Assembly (NCBI GenBank): GCA_014193315.1
Contig: BJHS01000007.1
Coordinates: 62,001 to 126,000, forward strand
Length of the DNA stretch: 64,000 nucleotides
Source: Verrucomicrobiota bacterium
GTDB lineage: Bacteria; Verrucomicrobiota; Verrucomicrobiia; Opitutales; UBA953
Direction: 5' to 3'
Both the position numbers and the translations under genes were made by a program. Below, piece by piece: positions 14,075 through 25,550 of this stretch. Below the pieces are notes generated by a model. The model had not been told where the DNA came from. It made no database searches and was given only the letters and a program-made list of their open reading frames with translations. How positions within the stretch are numbered: the stretch's first letter is position 1; every line of letters starts with the position of its first letter.

Positions 14075-14701
14075 TCAGATCAGCCCCAACTGCATCTTCC
14101 CGTCTTCGGAGATCATGGTCTGGGTCCACGGCGGGTCCCAGACGATGTCGACGCGGGCTTGGTTGACGCCTGGTACCGCCAGCACCCGATTGCGGGCGTC
14201 CTCGGCGATTACCGGCCCCATGCCGCAACCCGGCGCGGTCAGGGTCATGGCGACGACGACGCTATGTCGGTCGGCGGAGCCTTCGAGCGGATCAACCTTA
14301 AGCGAATACACCAGACCAAGGTCGACGATGTTCACCGGAATCTCAGGGTCGAAGACCTTCTTGAGGCTATCCCAGACGGCTTCGTCGGACGGCTTGCCGG
14401 TGTGGCCGGGGTGTTCGGCGGTGCCCACCGAGCCGTAGGCGTCGGTCTTGCCCTCGTTCTCGGTCGCGTCCGTGGGCGCGCTTTCGCTCAAGGCGTCGGC
14501 GTCGACTCCCTTGATGCGGAACATGCCGCTATCGCACACGACGGTGAAGTTGCCGCCAAGTCGGTGGGTGATGGTGACCTTGGTGCCGGCGGGTAGCACG
14601 GCGGGCTCGCCGGCGGGGATTACGGTGGCCGCGACGTCGCGCGTCAGGTTACGGTCGTGCGGGCTGGGCGCGTGGCGGTGGCCGGTGGTGTCGTCGCTCA
14701 T
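14075..14701 (-). CDS. sufT: SufT-like Fe-S assembly protein (DUF59/MIP18 domain)
   Basis: A 208-aa protein with a C-terminal DUF59/PaaD-like domain from about residue 100. The motif [16 protein letters not shown] and the conserved cysteine in [11 protein letters not shown] are the hallmarks of the SufT/MIP18 group, which assists Fe-S cluster maturation or transfer. The N-terminal half (about 1-95) carries a beta-rich extension with [16 protein letters not shown], seen in SufT proteins of this kind. The start lies 2 bp after the sufD stop, so it is the last gene of the suf operon. Confidence 0.9.
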
Positions 14702-14703
14702 GA

Positions 14704-16029
14704 TCAGGCGTGGTGGAATTTGCCGCGGAGCATGCCGCGGACGGACTCGGTCGCCTCGGCGTGGCCGACCTTGGCGAGGACTTCCTCGAGGAAGCCTTGG
14801 GCCAGGAGTTCTTGGGCGACGGCCAGCGGGATGCCGCGGGTGCGCAGGTAGAAGAGCTCCTCGGGCGAGACCTGCCCGGTCGTCGCGCCGTGCGAGCACT
14901 TGACGTCGTTGGCCTCGATCTCGAGACCCGGCAGGGAGTCGGCCTCGGCCTCCGGCGAGAGCAGAAGGTTGCGATTTGTCTGGTAGGCGTCGGTGCGCTG
15001 CGCGTCGGGATCGACCTTGATGAGGCCGGAGAAGATCGTGCGGGCTTTGCCGAGCAGGGCGTTCTTGAAGAGGAGGTCGGACTTCGCCTGACCGGCGGCG
15101 TGGACCTGCAGGGTGCGTTGGTCGAACTCCTGGTCGCCGGAGGCGACGCTGATGCCGTAGAGGCGGACATCCGCCCCCGGGCCGTCGATGCGCACCGTGT
15201 TCTCGAGGCGGGCCCGGCGGGCGCCGACCGCGGCGTTGACCGAACTGATGAGCGCGTCGCGGCCGCCGCAGGTGTTGTCGACCTGGAAGGATTGGGTCGC
15301 GGAGCCCCAGGCTTGCACGGCTAGCCGATGGACCTGGGCCCCGGTGCCGGCGTGGATGTCCGCGGCCGAGATCGCGAGCGCCCGTTGGTCGGGGCGGGCC
15401 GCGAGGTGGAAGTCATGGACGTCGGCCTTGGCCCGCTCGCCCGCGATGATTAGGGCGTGAGGGAAGACCGCGACGCCTTCGGTGAGCGTCCAGGTGACGG
15501 CGACGAAGGGTTGTTTCACCTCGACGCCCTTGGGGACATGGAGGACGTAGCCGGCCCGCAGCCAAGCCCGGTGCAGCGCGCCGAACTTATCGCCTCCGAG
15601 GAGGATCGGGTGCTTGAGCAGGTGCTCCTGCAGGAGGGCGGGGTGGGTGCGGATGGCATCCTCGAGTGAGGCGAAGACCACGCCTTGGGCGATGAGCTCG
15701 GGGGCGAGCGTCGGCTTCAGCACACAATGCCCATCGACGTGCACGATGAGTCCGGCCGCGTCCGAGATGAGGCGGGAGCGGGCGATGAGGTCCGCGGCCT
15801 GCGGGGCGGTGGGGGCTGGCGCCGGGGCATACCCCTCGAGCGATAGCGAGCGCGTGTCGGAGAAACGCCACTTCTCGTCGTCGCGGCGGGGCAACGGGAG
15901 GGATTGGAAGGTGTGCCAGCCCTGCTGACGCAGGATGGCGAACCAATCCTGCGCCCGGAACTGGGCGGTCTCGGCGGACTGCCTCGCGGCGTCGAGGATG
16001 CCGGCGGGGGCGGGGGCGACGACGTTCAT
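14704..16029 (-). CDS. sufD: Fe-S cluster assembly protein SufD
   Basis: A 441-aa scaffold subunit that pairs with SufB on SufC. The beta-helix core and the C-terminal SufBD signature ([27 protein letters not shown], split here as [10 protein letters not shown] and ELFYLRTRG) are present, including the His implicated in cluster assembly in E. coli SufD. The ATG overlaps the sufB stop by 4 bp (ATGA), a strong sign of translational coupling and the reason for this start. An upstream in-frame extension lies inside sufB. Confidence 0.95.
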
Positions 16030-17453
16030 CCGACGGACCCTTCCATCTGCAACTCGATCAGGCGCTTGAGCTCGACGGAGTATTCCATGGGGAACTCCTT
16101 GACCAGGTCGTTGACGAAGCCGTTCACGGCGAGGGACATCGCTTCGCCTTCCGACAGGCCGCGCTGCATCATGTAGAAGATCTGTTCGGCCGAGACCTTC
16201 GAGACGCTCGCTTCGTGCTGGACGGAGTTCTTGCGGCCGCGGACGGAGATCGCCGGATAGGTGTCGGTGCGGCTGTGCTCGTTGATGAGCAGCGCGTCGC
16301 ACTCGGTATTATTACGGCAGTTCGAGAGGGTCTTCGGGATGTGGACCAGGCCACGGTAGGTCGAACGGCCTTGGCCGACGGAGATGGACTTCGCGATGAT
16401 GTTCGAGGTCGTGTCATCGGCCGCGTGGATCATTTTGGCGCCGGTGTCCTGGTGCTGGCCATCGTTGGCCAGTGCGATGGAGAGCACCTCGCCGCGGGCG
16501 CGCTTGCCGCGCAGGACCACGCCGGGGTACTTCATCGTCAGGCGGGAACCGATGTTGCAATCGATCCAGCGGACTTCGGCGTCCTCTTCGGCCACGCCGC
16601 GCTTCGTCACGAGATTGAAGACGTTGGCGGACCAGTTCTGGACGGTGATGTACTGAATCTTCGCGCCCTTGAGGGCGACGAGCTCGACGACCGCGGAGTG
16701 CAGGGTGGCGGTCTCGAACTTGGGGGCAGTGCAGCCCTCCATGTAGGTCACTTCGGCGCCTTCGTCGGCGATGATGAGCGTGCGCTCGAACTGGCCGAAG
16801 TTCTCGGCGTTGATGCGGAAGTAGGCCTGCAGAGGCTGGGCGACCTTCACCCCCTTTGGGATGTAGATGAACGAGCCGCCGGAGAAGACCGCGGAATTGA
16901 GGGCGGAGAACTTGTTATCGCCGATCGGGATGACCTTGCCAAACCACTTGCGGAAGATCTCCGGATGGTCGCGGAGGCCTTCGGTCGGGCCGCAGAAGAT
17001 GACGCCGAGTTTTTCGAGTTCCTCCTTCATGCGGGAGTAGACGGCCTCGGAGTCGAACTGGGCCTCCACGCCGGCGAGGAACTTACGTTCCGACTCCGGG
17101 ATGCCGAGGCGTTCGAAGGTCTTCTTCACGTCGTCGGGGACTTCTTCCCACGTGCGGACGGGCTTCTGGCCCTTGGAGAGGTAGTAGCGGATGTCCTCAA
17201 ACTTGATGTTCTCGAGGTCGGCCGTGGCCCAATGCGTCGGCATCGGCATGTCCTGGAAGATCTTTAGGGACTTCTGGCGGAACTCGCGGATCCATTCCTC
17301 CTCGCCCTTGACCTTGGCGATATAGTCCACGGTCGCGGCGCTGAGGCCCACTCCGGCGTCGAAGGTATAGTTTTCCGCGTATTTGAAGTCGCCCTTGGAG
17401 CGATCGACTTCGATTGCTTCGCGCTGCGCCTGGGATTCGTCGATTTCGGCCAT
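16026..17453 (-). CDS. sufB: Fe-S cluster assembly protein SufB
   Basis: A 475-aa SufB scaffold, normal length. Typical segments are [54 protein letters not shown] and the catalytic-region [14 protein letters not shown], whose Cys is the cluster/persulfide site in SufB. The ATG at 17453 lies 5 bp after the sufC stop. It partners the downstream sufD. No sufS, sufE or sufU gene is present in the window, so sulfur must be supplied from another locus. Confidence 0.97.
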
Positions 17454-17458
17454 CTGGT

Positions 17459-18217
17459 TTAGGCGGAGGCGAGTTCGGTTTTCACCCAATCATAGCCCTT
17501 GGCTTCGAGTTCGAGGGCGAGCTCCTTGGGGCCGCTGTGTACGATGCGGCCGTCCCACATGATGTGGACGCGGTCCGGGACGATGTAGTCGAGCAGGCGT
17601 TGGTAGTGGGTGATCACGCAGAAGCCGGTGGCCGGGCCGCGCATGGCGTTCACGCCCTCGGAGACGATGCGGAGTGCGTCGATGTCGAGGCCGGAGTCGG
17701 TCTCGTCGAGCACGGCATACTTCGGTTTAAGCATCATCAGCTGGAGGATCTCACAGCGCTTCTTCTCGCCGCCGGAGAAGCCTTCGTTGACGAAGCGGGA
17801 GGTGAACTTCCGGTCCATCTTGAGGGCGTCCATCTTTGCGTAGAGCTCGGTGTAGTAGGCCTTGGCGTCGAAGGGCGCACCTTTGACCTGGCGGGCGACG
17901 ATGGCGGCGCGGATGAAATTGGCGATGGTCACGCCGGGGATTTCGCTCGGGTATTGGAACGCGAGGAACAGGCCGGCGCGCGCGATGGCGTCGGGCTCCT
18001 TTCCGAGCAGTTCCTCGCCGTCGAGCAAGGCCGAGCCGGAGTGCACGGTGTAGTCGGGATGGCCGGCGAGGACCTTGGCGAGCGTGCTCTTGCCGGTGCC
18101 GTTGGGCCCCATGATGGCATGCACCTCTCCCTTCGGGATGGTGAGGCAGAAGTCCTTGAGGATCGGGCGGTCGCCAATCGCGGCGTTCAGGTTATGGATG
18201 GCAAGTTGGTCGGGCAT
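17459..18217 (-). CDS. sufC: Fe-S assembly ATPase SufC
   Basis: A 252-aa ABC-type cytosolic ATPase that energises the SufBCD scaffold. Walker [10 protein letters not shown] at 37-45, the SufC-type signature [11 protein letters not shown], and the Walker B region [15 protein letters not shown] are all intact. It begins 9 bp after the Fur-family regulator stop, which places regulator and suf genes in one transcript. Confidence 0.97.
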
Positions 18218-18226
18218 GGGCGCAGG

Positions 18227-18676
18227 TCAGAGGGTGGGGTGGGCATCGCCGGCGAGGGCGCGGCCATGGAAGCTCACTTCGATCGCCTCCGGGTCGAAGC
18301 CAGGCGGGAGGATCGAGCGAAGGCTTTGGATGACCTCGGGCGGCAATTCGATGTCGTGCACGCGGCCGGTGGCGGCGTCACGGAAGTGGGCATGGGGGGC
18401 GAGGTTGGGGCAGTACCGGGTGGACTCCCGTTCGTGGTTCACCTGGCGGATCAGCCCGCAGCCCACGAAGGTCTGCAAGCAGTTGTAGACCGTGGCGAGG
18501 CTCAGGCCGGGCATCGTCTCCCGGGCGCGGTGGAACACTTCATCGACGGTGGGGTGGTCGCGTTTGGCGAGCAGGACGGAAAAGACGACCTCGCGCTGCG
18601 GCGTTACTTTCTGGCCGCTCTTGGCTAACGATTCCTGGAGGTTTTCCCGGTCATGTTCGGAGATGTTTTGAATCAT
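18227..18676 (-). CDS. Fur-superfamily regulator lacking zinc CxxC motifs (Irr-like), likely suf operon regulator
   Basis: A 149-aa Fur-family winged-helix repressor. The DNA-binding region has GQKVTPQREVVFSVL and SLATVYNCLQTFVGCGLI. The regulatory domain keeps an H-x-H (APHAHF) and VHDIELP, but the two CxxC pairs that hold structural zinc in Fur/PerR are absent: the usual position reads RDAATGRVHD and the C-terminus has no Cys. This pattern, and the PPGFDPEAIEVSFHG tail, resembles Irr, the haem-responsive iron regulator of alphaproteobacteria. It is the first gene of the suf operon. The ATG at 18676 gives the usual N-terminal arm. Iron or haem control of suf is inferred. Confidence 0.88.
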   Translation of the reverse strand: MIQNISEHDRENLQESLAKSGQKVTPQREVVFSVLLAKRDHPTVDEVFHRARETMPGLSLATVYNCLQTFVGCGLIRQVNHERESTRYCPNLAPHAHFRDAATGRVHDIELPPEVIQSLRSILPPGFDPEAIEVSFHGRALAGDAHPTL

Positions 18677-18682
18677 TCTAAA
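18666..18682. promoter_or_regulatory. Candidate iron/ICE-type operator over the regulator start codon
   Basis: An inverted repeat with 7-nt arms and 3-nt spacer: TTTTGAA (18666-18672), TCA, TTCTAAA (18676-18682); 6 of 7 arm positions pair. On the coding strand it reads TTTAGAATGATTCAAAA and contains the regulator ATG. It resembles both the Fur/PerR 7-1-7 box and the ICE motif associated with Irr. Autoregulation of the regulator-suf operon is the natural inference. Confidence 0.55.
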
Positions 18683-18827
18683 TGGAGAAAGAGTTGGAAT
18701 GAGACCGAGTTGCAAGAACGAACCTTGGAAAGGTGCCAAATAACGCTTCCAATGGGGCTTTGGGCTGCGCGATACCGAAGTCAGCAAACATTTAAGCCCC
18801 TGATATGTATTTATTTATGAAACATCA

Positions 18828-20753: not shown

Positions 20754-21416
20754 TTAGTTCATCCCCGGCTCCGCCGTGCGGTCACCGTGCTCGTCAAGCA
20801 CGCGGCGCGCGTCCAGCCGGGCTAGTTCCTCCGCCACCGCGTGCAGGCGGCGTTCCGGGGAGAGGCATTCGAGCAAGGTGCGCCGCACGACCGTCGCCTC
20901 CACCAGGTGTCCCGCGGCGGCGTCGGCCAAGGCGCCGGGTTGGTTCGTCAACCCGCGGAGGCGTTCGAGCAACGGCTGGGCTTCGGCGCCGAGTCCGGCG
21001 ACGATCCGCTCGGAGAGGGCCAGGATGCGCGCGACTTCCCGCATGGTCACCGCCGCAGGTGGAAGCTCCTCGTCGACCACGGGAGCGATCTCGAGTCGAG
21101 GGTAGGGCGTGCGGCGTTGGACCTTGATGACGCGGGCGCGTCGCAGGCCCTCCAGGACGAGGTGCGAGGTGCCGTCGGGGAGCTCGACGTGGCCGACGAT
21201 GCGACCCACGCAGGTGAAGGGGCAGGGCGGTTCCGCGTTGTCGGGCGCGAGGCTTTCCTCGTCGAGTTGCGAGACCGCGAACAGCCGGTTCCCCGCCAGG
21301 GCATCTTGGAGCATCTTCCGGTAGCGTGGCTCAAAGATCCGCAAAGGCAGGAGCTGCTGCGGGAGGAGGACGCAGTCGCCGAGGGTCATGACCGGGATGA
21401 CGATTGTGGGCACCAT
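20754..21416 (-). CDS. Stand-alone Lon N-terminal (LON substrate-binding) domain protein
   Basis: A 220-aa cytoplasmic protein consisting of a LON N-terminal domain (PF02190), without the AAA+ ATPase or protease parts of Lon. The PUA-like beta domain covers about 1-115 (LLPLRIFEPRYRKMLQDAL, GRIVGHVELPDG, LVLEGLRRARVI), and a helical part follows to about 205. It probably binds unfolded or specific proteins as an adaptor. Start ATG at 21416 chosen because the domain begins there. It sits alone between a convergent BNR gene and ThuA. Confidence 0.87.
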   Translation of the reverse strand: MVPTIVIPVMTLGDCVLLPQQLLPLRIFEPRYRKMLQDALAGNRLFAVSQLDEESLAPDNAEPPCPFTCVGRIVGHVELPDGTSHLVLEGLRRARVIKVQRRTPYPRLEIAPVVDEELPPAAVTMREVARILALSERIVAGLGAEAQPLLERLRGLTNQPGALADAAAGHLVEATVVRRTLLECLSPERRLHAVAEELARLDARRVLDEHGDRTAEPGMN

Positions 21417-21472
21417 GGGTTCAGCATGGCCAGGTCGGTCGCCGTCGCAAGCGGGGGCGACGCTTTTACCGC

Positions 21473-22498
21473 TTACTTCGCCTTCGCCGGGACGACCGGG
21501 AAGATCGGGCTGGCGTAGTCCGCGAGGTCCTGCGGCTTCGCCGCGCCGGCGCGCTTCAGGGTGCCAAGCCAAGTCGGGTTGTAGGGGCCGACGAGGTCGA
21601 TCTTCAGGTCCGGCTTGATCGCGGCCTCGAGGCCGGTGGTCCAGAAGCAGGCGTTGACGAGCAGGCGGCGGAAGCCGTCATTCGCGAGGTCGCCCGAGGC
21701 GCCGTACGTCGAGGCGAAGACGCGGCCTTCCTTGCCCGAGGTGGACTTGTAGGTGCGCACCCAAGCCCCGGGCATCGGCTTCTTGGTGGCGTCGGTCGGG
21801 GAGTCGGGCTTCATGCCGGTGAGCGGCTGCGCCATCGCGAGGATCGTGCTACCCTCGATCGGGCTGGCGTTGTACGCGCCGATCTCGGCCCAGACATCCT
21901 TCACGCCGCGCAGCACGGGGTGTTCCGCTTGCGCCGGCACCAGGTCGAGGCGGGTGCTCGACTTGTGGTTGGGACCATAGTGGCCGACCCAGGTCTCGCC
22001 CAGGATCTGCCGGCCGAAGCCGCCCTTGAAGTCGTCGCCTTTGTAGTCGAAGGAATATTTATAGAGCGGGCTTTCCTTGGCGTAGCGGAAGCCGTGGGTC
22101 GCCGTGCGCAACCCGATGACCGCGCCGCCGCGGTTGAGGTAATCGAGGATGGGCTGCATCTGCTCGACCGGGATGGCTTGGAAGCGCGTGAAGATGACGA
22201 GGAGGTTGGCATCCTTCAGGGCCTCGGTGCCCGGGATGTTGCTCGGGCTGCCGAGCGCGATGTTACCGGTCTTCGGTTCGATGCCGAACAACACCGTGCA
22301 GCTGAAGCCTTGGTGCTTGGCGAGGATGCGCGCCAGCTGCGGCAAGGCCTCCTCGGACTTGTACTCATGGTCGTTGGCGATGAGGACGACCTTCTTGCCC
22401 TTGCCCGGGCCCTCGGTGCCGACGTAGGTGAGGGGGGCGTCGGCCGCGCGGGCCGTGAGGGCGAGCAGGGAAAGGCAGAGCAGGGCGAGGGGGCGCAT
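21473..22498 (-). CDS. Secreted ThuA-like domain protein
   Basis: A 341-aa exported protein, second ThuA-like (PF06283-type) protein of the window and larger than the first. Signal peptide at about 1-18. Motifs KKVVLIANDHEYKSEEALP, IFTRFQAIP, GGAVIGLRTATHGFRY and ETWVGHYGPNH follow the class-I amidotransferase-like fold. The C-terminal part has VFASTYGASGDLANDGFRR and NPTWLGTLKRAG. ATG at 22498 begins the signal peptide; the frame is open further upstream through the repeat island but is not credible coding. Role in keto-sugar catabolism is inferred from the family. Confidence 0.87.
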   Translation of the reverse strand: MRPLALLCLSLLALTARAADAPLTYVGTEGPGKGKKVVLIANDHEYKSEEALPQLARILAKHQGFSCTVLFGIEPKTGNIALGSPSNIPGTEALKDANLLVIFTRFQAIPVEQMQPILDYLNRGGAVIGLRTATHGFRYAKESPLYKYSFDYKGDDFKGGFGRQILGETWVGHYGPNHKSSTRLDLVPAQAEHPVLRGVKDVWAEIGAYNASPIEGSTILAMAQPLTGMKPDSPTDATKKPMPGAWVRTYKSTSGKEGRVFASTYGASGDLANDGFRRLLVNACFWTTGLEAAIKPDLKIDLVGPYNPTWLGTLKRAGAAKPQDLADYASPIFPVVPAKAK

Positions 22499-22538
22499 GG
22501 GGGCATTAAGGAGGGGAAGGGGGGCGGGGACGAGGAAA

Positions 22539-22730
22539 GAGTGCGGAATATGGGGTAGCGTGCGGGATCGAGTACAGAGGGCTGTATCGAGGGCTGAATC
22601 GAAAGGAGAATACAAAGGAGGGCGGGGAGGGTGGGCGATATCTCCGGCCTTCATGTAACCATCGAAGCTGGCGCCGACCCAGCACTCGATTCAGCACTCT
22701 GTACTCCGCACTCCGGACTCCGCGGTACTC
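22539..22730. repeat. Intergenic degenerate heptamer island B (inverted arms)
   Basis: The right arm (22681-22730) is built of units ending in ACTC: AGCACTC (22681), AGCACTC (22693), TGTACTC (22700), CGCACTC (22707), CGGACTC (22714), with 5-nt spacers GATTC and CGCGG. The left arm contains the complementary forms GAGTGCG (22539), GAGTACA (22570), GAGGGCT (22577 and 22589) with 5-nt spacers GTATC and GAATC. Read on one strand, both arms show the same unit order GAGTACA, GAGnGCT, GAATC, so the island is an imperfect inverted repeat of tandem units. It fills the gap between the ThuA gene and the helix-hairpin-helix gene. Confidence 0.75.
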
Positions 22731-24290: not shown

Positions 24291-25550
24291 ATGTCCACCC
24301 CTCCTCTCGTCATCGGTAAATTCTCCCTCGGCATGGGCGACCGCTTCGCCCACGAAGCCGAAGCCCAACTCGCCGCCTGCCTCGCGGCCAAGCAGCTCGG
24401 CGTCGAGATCGTCCCGGTCTGGAACAAGTCCAACCGCGAGCATAACATCATCGGCTCCGAGCCAACCAGCACCCGCGCCGCGGCCGATGCCGCCGTGAAG
24501 ACCCTCGGCTGGACCGCCCCCTACTTCCTCGATGCCGACCACATCGGCCTGAAGACCGTCGAGCGCTTTGTCGGCGTCTCCGACTTCTTCACCATCGACG
24601 TGGCCGACTTCATCGCCCAGCCCGCCGACCCCGCCGCGGTGCAGGCCTTCGTCGACCGCCACCCCGAGCTTGTCGGCACGCTCACCCTCGCCGGCATCGA
24701 CCGTCCGTTCACGACCGCGCGCGCCGATGTCGAGCGCACGGCCGCCAAGTTCCTCCTGGCCGTCCAGGAAGCCGGCAAGGTCTACCGCCACATCGTCGCC
24801 GTCAAGGGCGTCGGCCTTTTCGTCCCCGAAATCTCGATGGACGAGACCGATAGCCCGCAGACCCCGCCCGAGCTCCTCATCATCCTCGCAGCCATTGCCG
24901 ACGAAGGCGTGCCGATCCAGACCATCGCTCCGAAGTTCACCGGCCGTTTCAACAAGGGCGTCGACTACGTCGGCGACCTCGCGCAGTTCGAACGCGAGTT
25001 CAACGACGACCTCTGCGTCATCGCGCACGCCGTCAAGCAGTATGGCCTCCCGGCCAACCTGAAGCTCTCCGTGCACAGTGGCAGCGACAAGTTCTCCATC
25101 TACCCGGCCATCCGCCGGGCCCTCGCCAAGCACGGCGCCGGTGTCCACGTGAAGACCGCGGGCACCACCTGGCTGGAAGAAGTCATCGGTCTCGCCGAAG
25201 CCGGCGGTGCCGGGCTCGCGCTCGCCAAGGAAATCTACGGCGAAGCCTTGTCCCACATGGACGAGCTCTGCCAGCCCTACGCGACCGTCATCGATATCGA
25301 CCGCTCCAAGCTCCCCGCCGCCGTCGTCGTGAACGCCTGGACCGCCGAGCAGTTCGTCGGCGCCCTGCGCCACGACCAGCAGAACCCGCTCTATAACGCC
25401 AACATCCGCCAGTTGATCCACGTCGGCTTCAAGGTCGCCGCCAAGATGGGGCCGCGCTACCTCGAACAGCTCAAGGCCTGCCGCGAGTCCTGCGCCCGCA
25501 ACGTCACCGGCAATCTCCTGGACCGCCACATCAAGCCGCTCTTCCTGTAA
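24291..25550 (+). CDS. uxaE: Tagaturonate epimerase UxaE
   Basis: A 419-aa protein of the UxaE family (PF16257), which interconverts D-tagaturonate and D-fructuronate during galacturonate/uronate breakdown. Recognisable stretches are GMGDRFAHEAEAQL at the N-terminus, DADHIGLKTVERF, APKFTGRFNKGVDYVGD, KLSVHSGSDKFSIYP and the C-terminal NLLDRHIKPLFL. It is a single-gene unit ending at a strong hairpin. No uxaB, uxaC or kdg genes are in the window, so the rest of the pathway lies elsewhere. It fits the alginate-lyase-family and sulfatase content of the region. Confidence 0.92.
   Translation: MSTPPLVIGKFSLGMGDRFAHEAEAQLAACLAAKQLGVEIVPVWNKSNREHNIIGSEPTSTRAAADAAVKTLGWTAPYFLDADHIGLKTVERFVGVSDFFTIDVADFIAQPADPAAVQAFVDRHPELVGTLTLAGIDRPFTTARADVERTAAKFLLAVQEAGKVYRHIVAVKGVGLFVPEISMDETDSPQTPPELLIILAAIADEGVPIQTIAPKFTGRFNKGVDYVGDLAQFEREFNDDLCVIAHAVKQYGLPANLKLSVHSGSDKFSIYPAIRRALAKHGAGVHVKTAGTTWLEEVIGLAEAGGAGLALAKEIYGEALSHMDELCQPYATVIDIDRSKLPAAVVVNAWTAEQFVGALRHDQQNPLYNANIRQLIHVGFKVAAKMGPRYLEQLKACRESCARNVTGNLLDRHIKPLFL

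Follow-up and report, generated by a model that had tools for sequence, protein, structure and literature searches.

Operons for Fe-S cluster assembly are generally described as being under the control of IscR, SufR or a global Fur or PerR protein. In the Opitutales (Verrucomicrobiota) genome considered here, of which a stretch of 64,000 nucleotides (the window) was analysed, the suf operon is headed by a gene encoding a Fur-family protein, which raises the question of what kind of regulator this protein is, on which operator it may act and in which direction it may respond. An earlier reading of the DNA letters (the sequence-only reading) had proposed an Irr-type circuit, either independent or transferred. 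In literature searches, we found no published description of a Verrucomicrobiota suf regulator of this kind.

The suf operon and its first gene

The genes of the locus are the following:
18227..18676, minus strand: Fur-family (PerR/Irr-like) regulator, 149 aa (ORF, profile matches, residue mapping on B. subtilis PerR)
17459..18217, minus strand: sufC, Fe-S assembly ATPase (TIGR01978, 330 bits over cut-off)
16026..17453, minus strand: sufB (TIGR01980, 626 bits over cut-off)
14704..16029, minus strand: sufD (TIGR01981, 237 bits over cut-off)
14075..14701, minus strand: sufT (PF01883 FeS_assembly_P, 58 bits over cut-off)

The order regulator-sufC-sufB-sufD-sufT and the junctions given by the sequence-only reading were confirmed from the sequence, with 9 bp between the regulator and sufC, 5 bp between sufC and sufB, an ATGA overlap (-4) of sufB and sufD, and 2 bp between sufD and sufT, the identities of sufC, sufB and sufD being those of NCBIfam and that of SufT resting on PF01883. 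Of the span 18227-18682 that had been attributed to the feature, the gene end at 18227 stands, whereas the ORF stops at 18676 (its ATG being 18676-18674 on the minus strand) and 18682 is where an operator box ends, two codons ahead of the ATG. The 149-aa protein matches Pfam FUR with 73.5 bits and, as had been noticed before, is devoid of any CxxC motif. A Fur fold is seen in its AlphaFold model (pLDDT 88) and was confirmed by a fold search, in which the rows were tied within the family; by domain and by fold, the protein is thus a member of the Fur superfamily. SufR and IscR are likewise autoregulatory repressors of Fe-S assembly, but they belong to unrelated families carrying an Fe-S cluster, while the regulator here is a Fur-fold protein. 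This genome encodes a single strong Rrf2 protein, which contains no cysteine and is therefore not IscR or RirA. Elsewhere in the window, and outside the suf finding, positions 20754-22654 and 24291-25550 hold genes for a LON substrate-binding domain protein, a ThuA-domain protein and the tagaturonate epimerase UxaE.

Position within the Fur family and the putative sensing site

The regulator was placed against Fur, PerR, Zur, Mur and Irr in a tree of 83 proteins and 143 columns, in which the Irr rows came only from plasmid-collection records and several rows were long-branched. The suf-linked proteins form one clade (support 99/93) and alphaproteobacterial Irr a separate one (100/92), which rules out membership of the regulator in the Irr clade; the PerR/Irr half of the tree contains both, away from Mur, Fur and Zur, so that a grouping with any of these three is ruled out as well. 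By this phylogeny, the regulator is a member of the PerR/Irr half of the Fur family, as a clade of its own. A distant affinity to Irr is conceivable, as an AU test with the suf-linked and Irr clades constrained as sisters did not reject this relation (p 0.45). Profile scores stay below the NCBIfam cut-offs for Irr (56 bits, with 170 required), IrrA (58 bits, with 150 required) and PerR (at best 77 bits, with 180 required); the best PDB profile match is B. subtilis PerR (92 bits). An unannotated Azospirillum match, first labelled Irr, grouped with Mur/Fur in the tree.

When mapped on B. subtilis PerR, whose regulatory ligands are H37, D85, H91, H93 and D104, the corresponding positions are H41, C89, H95, H97 and D108; four of the five ligands are thus kept, and Asp85 is replaced by Cys. 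H41, N65, H95, H97 and D108 are invariant, and the Cys equivalent to C89 is nearly invariant throughout the suf-linked lineage, in zinc-bearing and zinc-free members alike, so that, as far as residue mapping can tell, H41, C89, H95, H97 and D108 likely make up the sensing site. D108 and N65 occupy the positions by which Fur, Zur, Mur and Nur can be told apart from PerR and Irr (PMC8638967). Besides the change of Asp85 to Cys, the regulator differs from PerR in lacking the structural zinc site (two CxxC motifs), in having G/C as base four of the operator half-sites and in being local to suf, with no peroxide genes recognised at the box sites read; a 7-1-7 operator is common to both. The residue after C89 is a proline in most members, but Cys-Ala is found in family f33 and the pair is absent from L059, L090 and L114-L116; since this proline is not universal, Cys-Pro is no dependable haem motif, which weakens its candidacy as a classical haem regulatory motif.

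With alphaproteobacterial Irr the regulator shares the absence of CxxC, the Asn of the recognition helix, the Asp at the PerR/Irr position and the HxH (criteria of PMC8638967). The helix itself reads SLATVYNCL, of which SLATVYN is identical to that of most Irr proteins compared, and this match may explain the ICE-like operator described below, itself near-identical to that found at Irr target genes. It differs from Irr, apart from its separate clade, by the Cys for Asp in the sensing site, by the absence of the G-x-HRHxT insertion and of FDTN, in place of which it has DHPT and YCPN, by heading the suf operon itself, and by having sister lineages which keep the zinc site. We know of no suf operon headed by Leptospira PerRA or PerRB. 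These two proteins (PDB 5nl9; PMC8638967) are likewise PerR-like without CxxC and have autoregulatory sites similar to the Irr box, but they keep Asp at the Cys position, and they grouped weakly with Irr in our tree.

The sister lineages were informative as to the origin of the zinc-free form. Elsewhere in the class, in families outside Opitutales, an ortholog heads sufC-sufB-sufD, mostly with a box (L308, L310-L316); two CxxC motifs are kept in the orthologs of families f33 and f35, and none is found in Opitutales or in family f29, a distribution that amounts to two changes on the tree. It follows that the zinc cysteines were lost secondarily, within one suf-linked lineage; judged from the aligned proteins, this loss is local and no mark of an imported Irr. 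The CxxC-bearing sister orthologs, together with the separate clades, rule out a transfer from alphaproteobacterial Irr. Of the Irr-type circuit proposed earlier, an independent circuit with an ICE-like operator therefore holds, while Irr identity and transfer fall, FDTN and HRH being absent too. In most of the Opitutales genomes sampled, as in several other families of the class, the suf operon has a Fur-family regulator dedicated to it and an operator to match. The zinc-bearing and zinc-free forms, sharing a conserved Asp-to-Cys change of the sensing site within one lineage, make up a natural series in which the passage between PerR-type and Irr-type sensing, and the repeated appearance of the ICE operator, could be studied.

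Putative operator boxes and the genes beneath them

Upstream of and across the start of the regulator gene, the following elements were found:
18666..18682, no strand: operator box 2, an ICE-like element that reads TTTAGAATGATTCAAAA on the minus strand and spans the start codon; of the 25 genus members compared, 24 have kept it
18693..18709, no strand: operator box 1, one half of which is eroded here (minus strand: CTCGGTCTCATTCCAAC); most genus members have it whole, as TTAGACTCATTCTAAC or TTGGAATCATTCCAAC
18710..18716, minus strand: CTTGCAA block adjoining box 1 on its upstream side, a possible -35 element; conserved in 25 genus upstream regions

The ICE-like inverted repeat that the sequence-only reading had seen over the ATG is indeed present (TTTTGAATCATTCTAAA, 18666-18682) and is one mismatch away from TTTAGAA-N3-TTCTAAA. 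This pattern, the ICE form named earlier, served as a reference for the ICE alongside the Rhodobacter site of PMC6956336. When the pattern was searched for, box 2 was the sole match in the window at up to 3 mismatches (dinucleotide shuffles averaged 0.08), and the 2.36 Mb genome contained two sites at 0-1 mismatch, namely box 2 and a perfect copy at C4:136594, where base composition predicts about 0.009. At 3 mismatches, the sites of this genome were close in number to those of a reversed-pattern control and were not taken as targets. Box 1 had been overlooked in the earlier reading; its left half is eroded in this genome and in its nearest relative (L021). Across the genus, the upstream region has a conserved CTTGC followed by box 1, at roughly 33 to 17 bases from the ATG, and by box 2, which overlies the ATG; the one compared member lacking box 2 (L077) has box 1 only. 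Such a pair, with one box within the promoter spacer and the other over the start, is the arrangement that would be expected of an autorepressor.

Conservation of the box upstream of orthologous operons, on which the earlier proposal had depended, extends across Opitutales, where regulator orthologs share 45-87% identity. In 98 distinct upstream regions, which were fetched by protein similarity alone and hence not selected for the box, TTRGAATNATTCYAA was present at up to 2 mismatches in 96 (43 exact, 51 with one mismatch), compared with 1 of 98 in a reversed-sequence control, and sufC lay directly downstream of the regulator in all 95 loci with enough sequence to see. The exact box core was found in 68 of 177 Opitutales genomes, while the reversed pattern gave about 3 matches in all; it was present in 63 of 111 regulator-bearing genomes versus 5 of 66 regulator-less ones (Fisher 1e-11), a comparison confounded by size since regulator-less genomes are mostly small. 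Two of these five regulator-less genomes are from the same family. In family f29, two lineages (L309 and L319) have no recognisable box even though the order regulator-sufC-sufB-sufD is kept. One record titled as an Akkermansia muciniphila MAG (L214) carries a regulator 82% identical to the Opitutales one described here, and its title is probably wrong. Taken as sequence evidence, the conserved box very probably lets the regulator control the suf operon and its own gene.

Other genes also lie under the box. The exact palindrome TTTAGAATTATTCTAAA (G000:C4:136594-136610; L016 position 6595) stands between tpiA and an operon for alternative complex III, which includes a multihaem cytochrome and an Fe-S/Mo-like subunit; a box precedes this operon in 12 of 29 genus members and is absent in the rest, so that it is not genus-wide. 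In four Opitutales families, the box precedes a gene for a heavy-metal P-type ATPase, the gene start being 11-27 bases off (L101, L102, L105, L106, L141, L151, L161); this protein is an NCBIfam heavy-metal/cadmium ATPase, was assigned to the P1B-4 type by reading its SPC and HEGST motifs, and is a candidate iron exporter. The box was also found before sufS in two genomes, before gltB in one and before a TonB receptor gene in one. None of the genes at the non-suf box sites read was recognised as encoding a catalase, a peroxidase, a ferritin or a haem synthesis enzyme. The katG gene of this genome adjoins, directly upstream of it, a different Fur-family gene bearing CxxC (L017, G000:C12, 5579-6955), and a weak ICE-like site (3 mismatches) lies about 70 bases before the matched region of the latter. 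In addition, at five loci of two families (L133, L135, L137, L139, L130) an rpoD-like sigma factor gene is preceded by a box at a distance of 130-280 bases, and a box lies at the start of a secreted protein without assigned role at four loci of one family (L091, L092, L093, L125), with a PEP-CTERM-like end in L125.

Possible modes of action

We lean, by no more than a little, towards a dedicated, self-regulating and metal-loaded suf repressor, vertically inherited in this class of Verrucomicrobiota and acting on an ICE-like operator. From the gene order, the conservation of the box, the clade and the conserved residues, we infer binding, repression, ligand and direction of response as follows. 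As a dimer, the regulator would occupy a single 7-1-7 palindrome (TTRGAATNATTCYAA) or a pair of them, placed within the promoter spacer and across the start, and would thereby shut off its own gene along with sufCBD-sufT; in some lineages, the same operator would have recruited a few further iron-linked genes (those for alternative complex III and the heavy-metal P-type ATPase, sufS, gltB). If PerR is a guide, the protein would probably repress when metal-loaded, with Fe2+ at H41, C89, H95, H97 and D108, and would be released once the iron is lost or the site oxidised, so that Fe-S assembly would rise when clusters are short. This metal-loaded mode is favoured because four of the five PerR ligands are kept and because the orthologs of sister families resemble PerR and have a zinc site; the second box targets, moreover, concern Fe-S or metals. 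Against it, the replacement of D85 by Cys means that PerR chemistry may not carry over, the iron-needing genes under the box (complex III, gltB) would also fit an Irr-like logic, and the box-less f29 lineages keep the gene beside suf. Streptococcus mutans PerR represses sufCDSUB with iron as its cofactor (PMC11631912) and Irr binds the isc-suf P3 promoter of Rhodobacter in gel shift, at the site TTAGAAATATTCTAGA (PMC6956336), so that both modes have a precedent.

The opposite direction, by convergence or deep common descent with Irr, is a less probable alternative: the apo-protein would repress suf and iron users at low iron, and haem or iron at the Cys/HxH would release it. The operator is nearly identical to the gel-shifted Rhodobacter site (PMC6956336), the SLATVYN helix, the lack of CxxC and the Asp and Asn of PerR/Irr type (PMC8638967) are shared with Irr, whose HxH is also a haem site (PMC3413700), and the iron-rich targets, the Cys-Pro pair of most members and the AU result point the same way. 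The separate clade, the zinc site kept by orthologs of ancestral type, the Cys-Ala of family f33 and the lack of any haem or ferritin gene found under the box argue against it. We would also put forward, tentatively, that the regulator may represent a new class responsive to Fe-S status, in which a Fur-fold protein would use a Cys-containing site (H41, C89, H95, H97, D108) to sense haem, labile iron or a cluster and would control Fe-S assembly from an ICE-type operator, a state reached separately from alphaproteobacterial Irr once the zinc site had been secondarily lost.

A strict peroxide sensor of PerR type, in which H2O2 would derepress suf and metal export through oxidation of His or C89, seems improbable. 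The PerR-like ligands, Asn65 and the PerR profiles as the closest ones recall PerR, and the ATPase read as P1B-4-type under the box in four families parallels the P1B4 iron exporter PfeT, which B. subtilis PerR controls (PMC9993123). However, D85 is not conserved, no catalase or peroxidase gene was recognised at the non-suf box sites read, and katG here has its own CxxC-bearing Fur-family neighbour. That the box belongs to another transcription factor, the regulator merely travelling with suf, is hardly credible: the two box-less f29 lineages and the five regulator-less genomes with a box would fit, but the box is of the Fur-family 7-1-7 type, co-occurs with the regulator and, for almost every ortholog, stands at the regulator's own gene.
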